The position numbers and the translations under genes were made by a program. The notes below the pieces were generated by a model. That model saw nothing but the letters and a program-made list of their open reading frames with translations, did not search any database and was not told the DNA's origin. From positions 1-41,253 of the forward strand of contig JAFXRI010000079.1 of the NCBI GenBank assembly GCA_017526445.1: a stretch of 41,253 nt of DNA. Direction: 5' to 3'. Origin of the DNA: Ruminococcus sp. Its GTDB lineage: Bacteria > Bacillota > Clostridia > Oscillospirales > Ruminococcaceae. Below, piece by piece: positions 1 to 41,253 of the stretch (its first letter is position 1; each line of letters starts with the position of its first letter).

Positions 1-147
1 CGCCTCTGCACGTCATCTGCTTGCCAGCTTTCCGTCATATTACCCAAATTCTCCTTGACTTGCGCCAGCAAACCTGCGTCGAATTTAGGCAATCTGACGA
101 AAATCTGGACATCGCATCTGACGCACAGGGGTTGTGCGGTATTGCCC
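1..147 (+). repeat. MITE-like structured repeat, copy 1 (left end cut by the window edge)
   Basis: This is the reverse complement of the intact copy at 6363-6538. By eye there are about four differences over the 147 shared bases, so the two are recent relatives. The right end reads GGGTTGTGCGGTATTGCCC and matches the terminal inverted repeat of the intact copy except at its last bases. The left terminal repeat lies outside the window. A central hairpin has arms at 59-63 and 68-72 with loop GCCA. The copy ends about 75 bases before ruvA. No ORF in it is convincing. It may be a non-autonomous mobile element or a structured RNA element; the sequence does not decide between them. Confidence 0.8.
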
Positions 148-3774: not shown

Positions 3775-4746
3775 ATGAACATTTCCAAGAAGATCATTGC
3801 AGCAATACTGAGTATGGTGGTTTGCCTTTCAATGGCAGCCTGCGGAGACAGCAGCTCCAGCAGCTCCAGCTCCAAGGCAGATTCTTCCGCAGCTTCCGTT
3901 GCCGAGAGCAAGGCGGAGGAGTCCACAGCAGAGGAGTCTAAGGCTGAGGAATCCAAGGCCGAAGAGTCAGTGGCTGATACCGAGACACAGCCCGCAGAGT
4001 CCGAAGCAGAGCCTGTTGAGTCTGAAGCAGAGCCCGTTGAGTCTGAGGCAGAGCCCGTTGAGTCTGAGGCAGAGCCTGTTGAGTCTGAGGCAGAGCCCGA
4101 AGAGTCTGAAGCAGAGCCTGAGGAGTCTGAGGCAGAGCCCGACGAGTCTGAGGCAGAGCCTGAGGAGTCTGAGGCAGAGCCTGATGAGTCCGAAGCAGAG
4201 CCCGCACCTTCCGGTGACGCCGGCGTGGTAAAGGGCGACGGCTATGAGGTACAGCTCCCTGCAAGATGGATGGAGTTTGAAAGCTACAAGACCAAGCTCA
4301 CCGATGCCCTCAAGAAGGACGGCAAGACACTTATCGGCTTCTTCAAGCCCATCGGCGTTGACTTTGCATACTATAACAGCGAAGACCTGGAGAACACCGA
4401 CGGCGTTGCCACATTCTGCGGCAAGGCTCAGAAGAACAGCCTGTTCAAGAGCGTTAAGCTCGCTGACCTCGAGGCACAGCTCACTCCTACCGTAGAATCC
4501 AAGTACAGCAGTGTTGAGGGCCTGAAGTTCGAGAAGAAGACTGATGTCAAGGTAGGCGGCGCAGATGCTATCGAGTACGATGCTTCCGGTACGCTCAACG
4601 GTATCGCTTTCAAGGACCGTCAGTATGTTGTACTTAACGGCGATCTCCTTATGACATTCAGCTTCTCTGTTCCTGAATCGGACTATGATGCACTCAGCGG
4701 TGATATAGACCAGATCCTCGGAGCTGTTAAATTTACGGAGGCATAA
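3775..4746 (+). CDS. Lipoprotein with Glu/Ser/Ala/Pro heptapeptide repeats, between ilvB and ilvN
   Basis: A type II signal peptide ends in the lipobox SMAAC (Cys23), so the protein should be lipidated and held on the outer face of the membrane. A Ser/Ala/Glu-rich linker follows, then ten copies of xESEAEP (residues 74-143), an acidic stalk. A globular domain of about 175 residues (roughly 149-323) begins DGYEVQLPARW. It resembles, in outline only, small extracytoplasmic domains such as DUF1795/PsbP-like folds. The function is unknown. Its last bases (GGAGG, about 4736-4740) form the ilvN ribosome site and its stop is 2 nt before the ilvN ATG, so the two are translationally tied. A surface lipoprotein inside an acetolactate synthase operon is unexpected. 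Confidence 0.85.
   Translation: MNISKKIIAAILSMVVCLSMAACGDSSSSSSSSKADSSAASVAESKAEESTAEESKAEESKAEESVADTETQPAESEAEPVESEAEPVESEAEPVESEAEPVESEAEPEESEAEPEESEAEPDESEAEPEESEAEPDESEAEPAPSGDAGVVKGDGYEVQLPARWMEFESYKTKLTDALKKDGKTLIGFFKPIGVDFAYYNSEDLENTDGVATFCGKAQKNSLFKSVKLADLEAQLTPTVESKYSSVEGLKFEKKTDVKVGGADAIEYDASGTLNGIAFKDRQYVVLNGDLLMTFSFSVPESDYDALSGDIDQILGAVKFTEA
3994..4203 (+). repeat. Ten tandem 21-bp units encoding xESEAEP
   Basis: Ten contiguous 21-bp units encode A/V/E/D-ESEAEP. The first residue runs A,V,V,V,V,E,E,D,E,D, and third-position changes mark individual units. The array is in frame, so gain or loss of units would change stalk length without breaking the gene. There are no spacers, so it is not a CRISPR array. 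Confidence 0.95.
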
Positions 4747-5254: not shown

Positions 5255-6326
<1,072 letters not shown>

Positions 6327-6362
6327 TCTGCTGAGCGCAGTTCTCTCAGGCTGATGCTTTTT

Positions 6363-6538
6363 AAGGCAATACCGCACAACCCCTGTGCGTCAGATGCGAC
6401 GTCCAGATTTTCGTCAGATTGCCTAAATTCGACGCAGGCTTGCTGGCGCAAGTCAAGGAGAATTTGGGTAATATGGCGGAAAGCTGGCAAGCAGATGACG
6501 TGCAGAGGCGTTAGCCGTGGGTTGTGCGGTGTTGCCTT
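6363..6538 (-). repeat. MITE-like structured repeat, copy 2 (complete, 176 bp)
   Basis: This is the only full copy. Its ends, AAGGCAATACCGCACAACCC at the left and GGGTTGTGCGGTGTTGCCTT at the right, are inverted repeats of 20 bp with one difference. TT/AA just outside makes TTAA symmetry at both ends, compatible with insertion at a TA-type site, though the palindrome hides any duplication. The central hairpin is CTTGC (6439-6443), loop TGGC, GCAAG (6448-6452). It is given as minus so that copies 1 and 3 are plus. It lies 36 nt past the ilvC stop and before the terminator at 6560, so it should be part of the ilv transcript. It encodes no plausible protein. Confidence 0.88.
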
Positions 6539-6559
6539 AATTGAAATGATGTATTGATC

Positions 6560-6591
6560 GCCCTGCGGCTTTGCTGCGGGGCGGTTTTTTT
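6560..6591 (+). terminator. Intrinsic terminator of the ilv operon
   Basis: A 10-bp stem (6560-6569 with 6573-6582, two G-U pairs) has a 3-nt loop and is followed by GG and seven T. It is the first good terminator after ilvC, so repeat copy 2 falls in the 3' untranslated region. Nothing recognisable was found from 6592 to about 6810. Confidence 0.85.
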
Positions 6592-6810
6592 GCGCATAAG
6601 CGGCGGAAGCAGGACCTGCCGGGCCGAAATTTGCAGGGCAGGTGCAGAAGGCGGGTGCTGCTCTCGTTACGCCCTGATCGGCTTTCCGGCTTATATTTCC
6701 CTGTTTTTTCTCCTGAAAAGATGGAATACAAGCCTTGTGCAAAATGCACAAAAGAAAACGCCCCAATTATTGCGGCTCGCCAAAATTTGCGTATGGACTG
6801 AAAATTTGTA

Positions 6811-41085: not shown

Positions 41086-41253
41086 AGGCAACACCGCACA
41101 ACCCGCGGCTTGAGCCTCTGCACGTCATCTGCTTGCATATTTTCCGTCATAGCACACAAATTTTCCTTGCCGGGCGTCAGCCCGCCTGCGTCAAATTTAT
41201 GCACTCTGACGAAAAATCTCAGCTCAACTTTGTTGAGCTTGCGCGCGATCTGA
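41085..41253 (+). repeat. MITE-like structured repeat, copy 3 (right end cut by the window edge)
   Basis: Begins AAGGCAACACCGCACAACCC, identical to the reverse-complemented terminal repeat of copy 2, then diverges to roughly three-quarters identity through the body. The central hairpin is CGGGC (41171-41175), loop GTCA, GCCCG (41180-41184). Near the right edge there is an extra perfect stem AGCTCAAC/GTTGAGCT (41221-41228 and 41232-41239) not present in copies 1 and 2. The right terminus is outside the window. It lies directly at the Nudix stop. Confidence 0.78.

Follow-up and report, generated by a model that had tools for sequence, protein, structure and literature searches.

The repeat family described here, from a Ruminococcus sp. 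genome, is a MITE by anatomy, and its body is under selection as a folded single strand. The body is not a decaying palindrome. With a probability of about one half, we read the element as non-autonomous and composed of two separable parts, IS5-type ends and a structured body selected on one strand, the latter being at best guess a cis-acting transcript element. The window referred to below is the whole stretch analysed, 41,253 nucleotides of contig JAFXRI010000079.1.

The complete copy in the window covers 172 bp (6365 to 6536, plus strand), has the conserved fold on plus and scores 183.9 bits with the covariance model. It is bordered by the target-site duplication TTAA on the left (6361 to 6364) and right (6537 to 6540), as read from the sequence. 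The sequence-only reading had set the element at 6363 to 6538, which was right about the element but not about its ends, since the AA and TT of the duplication were included. It had also ascribed shared 20-bp terminal repeats to the copies. The repeats exist, but their length is 18 nt (GGCAAYACCGCACAACCC), and copies 1 and 3 show one repeat each because the contig ends cut them. The A-end (GGCAATACCGCACAACCC, 6365 to 6382, plus) has its first 15 nt in common with an IS5-family element discussed below, and the B-end (GGGTTGTGCGGTGTTGCC, 6519 to 6536, plus) was located from the sequence and a terminal-repeat search. The three copies first recognised in the window are indeed there. Copy 1 (1 to 146, minus strand) is truncated at the contig start and, as had been claimed, nearly matches the complete copy 2 (98% identity). 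Copy 3 (41087 to 41253, minus) is truncated at the contig end and carries a slot-1 hairpin, AGCTCAACTTTGTTGAGCT. The stem change that had drawn attention to the family is real: the central slot-2 hairpin CTTGC-TGGC-GCAAG at 6439 to 6452 (plus, alignment A1) corresponds to a CGGGC/GCCCG stem at 41171 to 41184 in the opposite orientation. In the complete copy a conserved internal loop, CGCAG on the 5' side (6433 to 6437) and CAAGG on the 3' side (6454 to 6458), both on plus and taken from alignments A1 and A2, encloses this hairpin.

Both visible junctions lie just after genes, as originally noted. Copy 2 begins 38 bp past an ilvC-like gene (5310 to 6326, plus; an ORF named from reading alone), and copy 3 begins 1 bp past the preceding gene. 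Downstream of copy 2 stands a terminator-like site (6556 to 6586, plus; a consensus match only). This placement between gene and terminator-like site is consistent with a transcript-regulator role, and no more than consistent. Positions 6200 to 6700, the stretch scanned for promoter-like sites, contained none. The ORF list also holds a mechanical 159-aa TTG frame across the element (6287 to 6766, minus). Elsewhere in the window, the ORF at 3775 to 4746 is lipoprotein-like and contains an extended ESEAEPV/E repeat tract; it is flanked by ilvB-like and ilvN-like genes, all named from reading.

The ends of the family are of IS5 type. Terminal inverted repeats, a target-site duplication and high copy number place the element among MITEs, and at 172 bp it is too short for a transposase gene. 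Where both flanks could be read (104 elements), the 4 bp on either side agree exactly in 72 (TTAA 39, TAAA 20, TATA 6, others 7), compared with 10 of 104 matching over 2 bp and none over 3 or 5 bp; distant elements have identical 4-bp flanks in 39 of 60 cases. A search for ends lacking the usual body led to an IS relic (L245), whose 149-aa ORF (P0001) served as a query and led to a 1107-bp element in the congener G006 (L255:1198-2304). The latter has a TTAG duplication and an uninterrupted 322-aa ORF, and it matches the MITE in its ends and in the 4-bp length of its duplication. The outer 15-16 nt are all that the two have in common, and by-eye comparison indicates that the MITE body is not derived from the longer element. 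The assignment to the IS5 family rests on the 149-aa relative of the 322-aa protein, which reached 155.7 bits against the IS5 model NF033581 (cut-off 140), and not on a scan of the 322-aa protein itself.

A present-day partner transposase was often not found. The 149-aa query matched in 4 of 16 genus genomes and in none of the other 12, the source genome (78% complete) among them. With the 322-aa protein as query, distant partial matches (25-39% identity) appeared in 3 of 12 other carriers, and there was no match in genome G186, which holds at least 150 copies of the element. Four DDE_Tnp_1 matches were recovered in G186; two were inspected (L425, L427), and MITE-type ends were not found near them. 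Short derivatives of 32-99 nt without most of the body have identical 4-bp flanks in 19 of 31 cases, so the body was either unnecessary for their movement or lost afterwards. Fifteen elements of 32-33 bp consist of two terminal repeats back to back, eight of them with identical 4-bp flanks (examples are L100:11203-11235, L111:5641-5673, L144:1484-1516, L149:1504-1536 and L154:1504-1536); they are either very small mobile units or collapsed palindromes. Two further elements, L130:1504-1602 (99 bp) and L147:1471-1516 (46 bp), have the same ends around unrelated interiors, each with identical 4-bp flanks.

The family is abundant and widespread. The source genome (G000; 2.14 Mb in 116 contigs) contains 275 terminal-repeat matches with at most two mismatches (forward 141, reverse 134), where the reversed control gives 1 and 0. 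Among at least 40 body matches in this genome, 16 of the 40 that were scored begin at contig base 1, showing that it is the repeat that fragments the assembly. When the family was surveyed with a two-end pattern of limited gap, elements turned up in 24 of 297 genomes, spread over 13 of 126 genera, and most of those listed are 172 bp long. The covariance model R1, which counts the G186 copies given above, matches in 38 of 245 genomes and 24 of 127 genera of the order, some of these matches being weak; the weakest ones outside the family (e.g. L396) may be chance long hairpins and were given no weight. A plasmid search returned no match to the element. Phage-labelled records gave six matches, four of them across the full 172 bp at 70-73%, and the element pattern occurs in one IMG/VR contig. 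We do not claim phage carriage, as the ORFs beside one phage-labelled match look chromosomal by reading.

Selection maintains the fold, as the sequence-only reading had proposed from paired stem changes. The window element folds at -105.4 kcal/mol (z -11.9) on the plus strand, defined as the strand starting at the CCCCTGTGCGTCAGA end, and at -69.8 kcal/mol (z -6.8) on the minus strand. Alignment A1 comprises 70 distinct full-length copies, five loci having been set aside for ambiguous orientation (L060, L071, L075, L144 and L211, of which L075 and L144 look like true relatives), and RNAalifold predicts 47 pairs in it, 22 of them doubly changed. The check on a larger alignment that had been called for used A2, whose 62 copies represent at least 11 genera (the near set supplied 12, and 50 came from the 60 distant finds, of which the other ten were shorter, longer or repeats). 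The 65-pair structure of A2 has a standard pair in 95.7% of cells, compared with 82.1% in shuffles and 35.5-48.1% in slid structures. Double changes occur at 43 of the 65 pairs and in 453 cells, against 28.6 pairs and 130.1 cells in shuffles, and none of 500 shuffles matches any of five measures. Covariation of the kind that marks structured RNAs thus goes beyond both the shuffle and the slide controls, where the shuffle tests are inflated by related copies and the slid controls preserve relatedness but are biased towards a structure obtained from that very alignment. The body forms a single long hairpin, imperfect and interrupted by purine-rich internal loops, with the conserved CGCAG/CAAGG loop below a covarying apical stem-loop. 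Conserved G-A oppositions stand at 29/133, 34/128 and 53/111. In its covariation, G-U pairs and G-A oppositions the body resembles structured RNAs of Rfam.

The body also has optional hairpin modules. The main element lengths are 172, 191/192, 210/211, 230 and 250, and there are four slots, each empty or holding a hairpin of about 19 nt. Among the 70 copies, 13 of 16 slot combinations are seen and 33 copies have no slot filled. The slot-1 hairpins listed (17 distinct segments in 26 copies) have stems of 7-8 bp and loops of 3-4 nt, with six different stems, two of which come from another genus (g157: L308, L310). The stem variants of slot 2 in A1 are TTGC/GCAA, GGGC/GCCC, ATAC/GTAT, TTAC/GTAA and AGGC/GCCT, plus longer forms. 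A short frame following an AAGGAG-like motif (MTESWQADDVQR) was considered and dropped, because slot-4 hairpins interrupt it.

Similar bodies also occur between other ends. We read 20 of the R1-matched loci. At L398 a similar body lies between unrelated inverted ends, GGAACCTCTGAATAA, with a CTTA duplication, and L399, L400 and L401 have similar bodies between unrelated inverted ends with no duplication seen. In genus g64 (L383-L388) and in G477 (L389-L393), similar bodies sit in larger palindromes with the ends AGCAGTGGAGAGCCGAACCC and TAGGCATNCGGGAGTCGAACCC, respectively. A second, inverted match is present in 7 of 11 of these g64 and G477 loci, complete or nearly so in some and limited to the core in others. 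Homology is favoured over chance hairpins because letters are conserved, namely CAGATTTTYGTCA, CGCAG-stem-CAAGG and a TGRCGGAAA-like motif. L402 and L397 were excluded from the set with unrelated ends, as they look like diverged versions of the IS5-type MITE ends. The palindrome ends of G477 (GGGTTCGACTCCCGCATGCC) resemble a tRNA T-arm by eye; ARAGORN called no tRNA at these ends. Judged by these sequence comparisons, the body appears separable from transposon ends. A bolder reading, which we hold tentatively and with the odds against it, takes the folded body, rather than the transposon, as the unit of selection. The body would then be an order-wide mobile structured RNA, moved between unrelated ends (IS5-type GGCAAYACCGCACAA, the ends of L398, g64 and G477, and others), swapping hairpin modules and standing head-to-head in g64 and G477. 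With a second inverted body head-to-head, either strand would carry one plus-sense fold.

The likeliest of the rival explanations is nonetheless improbable. In it the body is selected for its own spread, its RNA or fold raising transposition or the tolerance of insertions, and the host gains nothing. Similar bodies with different ends speak for it, as do copy bursts such as that of G186 while the fold is kept across genera. The retention of the pair in 34 of 49 recent singleton changes at paired sites fits as well. The body-less short derivatives with duplications speak against this explanation, and we know of no mechanism by which the body would promote its own spread.

Selection on the fold is confined to one strand. 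In A2 the plus strand is the more stable in all 62 copies, averaging -92.6 kcal/mol where the minus strand averages -66.2. When the two arms are aligned in a strand-neutral way, G-U occupies 611 cells and A-C 264, and G-U is the more frequent in 68 of 70 elements. Over the 65 pairs, whose structure derives from the plus-strand fold and thereby accepts G-U, 17 pairs show G-U at a frequency of at least 10% and none shows A-C (25 against 2 at a frequency of at least 5%). The minus-strand fold of A2 has 44 pairs (45 G-U and 22 A-C cells in plus letters) and shares 43 of them with the plus fold, which means that the plus-derived structure did not hide a set of A-C pairs. A search for hidden A-C pairs at loop positions returned 35/128 (78%) and 71/93 (63%), both lying inside loops; pair 69/95 is 75% Watson-Crick and 22% A-C. 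In a set of 30 copies, the folds of the two strands have 46 pairs in common, and these are balanced (10 G-U and 13 A-C cells), whereas the whole plus structure has 222 G-U and 13 A-C cells. The asymmetry therefore resides in pairs that only the plus strand can form. Mutation bias is an unlikely cause of the G-U excess because singleton transitions at paired sites are symmetric: in six clusters, each with four copies or more, 18 were C>T or A>G and 21 were G>A or T>C. These counts, which are small, disfavour strand-biased mutation as the source. All 49 paired-site singletons comprise 18 giving G-U, 16 Watson-Crick, 7 A-C and 8 other. An early reading of the 30-copy table, that recent changes are unfiltered, was dropped, as the cluster singleton analysis did not bear it out. 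The evidence favours action of the selected strand as RNA or as one-strand DNA.

Enrichment at gene ends, which had been put forward as a sign of function, was not significant when copies were mapped to genes. Of the 68 copies in tandem gene pairs, 40 are closer to the stop of the upstream gene (p 0.18; near set 18 of 26, remaining sets 13 of 20 and 9 of 22), and antisense copies outnumber sense ones 41 to 27 (p 0.11). No called gene spans a copy among 135, with simple gene calls that are blind to insertion-broken genes, and coding sequence makes up 85% of the near DNA sampled. In G186 the strand of the copies (at least 150) tracks chromosome position: the best two-arc split, with origin and terminus unmapped, is concordant for 112 of 150 copies, a value reached in 0 of 20,000 permutations. 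A sense-strand 3'-UTR role finds no support in position or orientation within tandem pairs. The antisense lean and the strand-by-position pattern of G186 count against a simple role of this kind, which predicts neither.

Selection of the plus strand as single-stranded DNA, forming a hairpin for transposition, replication or transfer as in attC sites or single-strand origins, is a fairly improbable rival. It accounts for a fold on one strand and for strand following chromosome position in G186, and in DNA, too, a G-T pair is favoured over A-C. No IS5-family DDE element is known to depend on a single-stranded substrate. The plus strand also lies more often, if non-significantly, opposite the flanking tandem genes and is hence probably not the exposed lagging-strand template.

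Still more doubtful is the explanation as a plain palindromic MITE, in which the hairpin is a by-product of the inverted arms and paired changes arise by hairpin-templated repair, with template switching copying one arm into the other. The overall palindrome, the assortment of modules among copies and the balance of G-U and A-C cells where both folds share a pair suit it, and some paired stem alleles are explicable as one swap each. Yet templated repair yields Watson-Crick pairs without strand preference, at odds with the G-U states at 17 pairs and A-C at none under symmetric recent mutation. Slot-1 hairpins of constant size and varied sequence, and the conserved G-A oppositions in loops, are left unexplained. 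Of the two forms first proposed for the conserved fold, RNA is favoured, alongside one-strand DNA, and a cruciform recognised in double-stranded DNA, for all its fit to a long inverted repeat with covariation, is very improbable because the plus strand folds better in every A2 copy and frequent non-standard states are G-U alone, a bias unexpected where both strands are extruded and the cost of a mismatch does not depend on which of them has the G-T.

We return to the reading of IS5-type ends around a cis-acting transcript element. Here a transposase of the IS5 family would mobilise the element in trans, with insertion at AT-rich 4-bp sites. RNA of the body would most likely be made by read-through from adjoining promoters, and the fold as RNA may act on the transcripts that contain the element. 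Our best guess is that the double-stranded RNA serves as a landmark for a host factor that cuts or binds it, for example RNase III or an RNA-binding protein. By analogy with proposals made for Neisseria NEMIS and Yersinia ERIC, the landmark might set the stability or extent of the transcripts hosting the element.

Known families resemble the element in part. No Rfam family reached its gathering score in the window, and a permissive search of 6200 to 6700 gave weak matches only. Across 15 related loci, the only Rfam match above cut-off is a T-box in the flank of L397; the body of L394 overlaps a weak L20-leader match (24.4 bits, cut-off 58.7). Text searches of open-licence PMC papers turned up no description of this MITE family. 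The Correia or NEMIS elements of Neisseria are described in a review as small MITEs with long terminal repeats whose stem-loop transcript is a proposed RNase III target; they have 24-bp repeats with TA at the termini and occur as 107- and 155-bp species (PMC2229807). The Ruminococcus element is likewise a small MITE with terminal repeats and a stem-loop, but it has 18-nt IS5-type ends, 4-bp duplications that are mostly TTAA or TAAA, a length of 172 bp that is kept from genus to genus, hairpin modules that may be present or absent, and similar bodies that occur between other ends. ERIC, also called IRU or RU-1, is described in the same review as a 127-bp intergenic repeat of enterobacteria with 7-bp ends and a stem-loop transcript implicated in mRNA stability (PMC2229807), and our element differs from it in sequence, hosts and ends (18 nt). 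The CIR elements of Caulobacter and Brucella appear there as small repeats with a phylogenetically conserved, two-armed RNA fold and without terminal repeats (PMC2229807). The Ruminococcus MITE shares with them a small size and a conserved RNA-like fold, whereas it has terminal repeats and its fold is not two-armed.

Bacterial MITEs are usually treated as decaying palindromes, and here one strand keeps a covarying fold of 65 pairs across genera. Setting G-U against A-C states, and using the mutation spectrum as a control, provides a simple test for selection as RNA, single-stranded DNA or cruciform in any palindromic repeat. If the RNA is active, some genomes would have more than 100 copies of one structured RNA beside as many genes.
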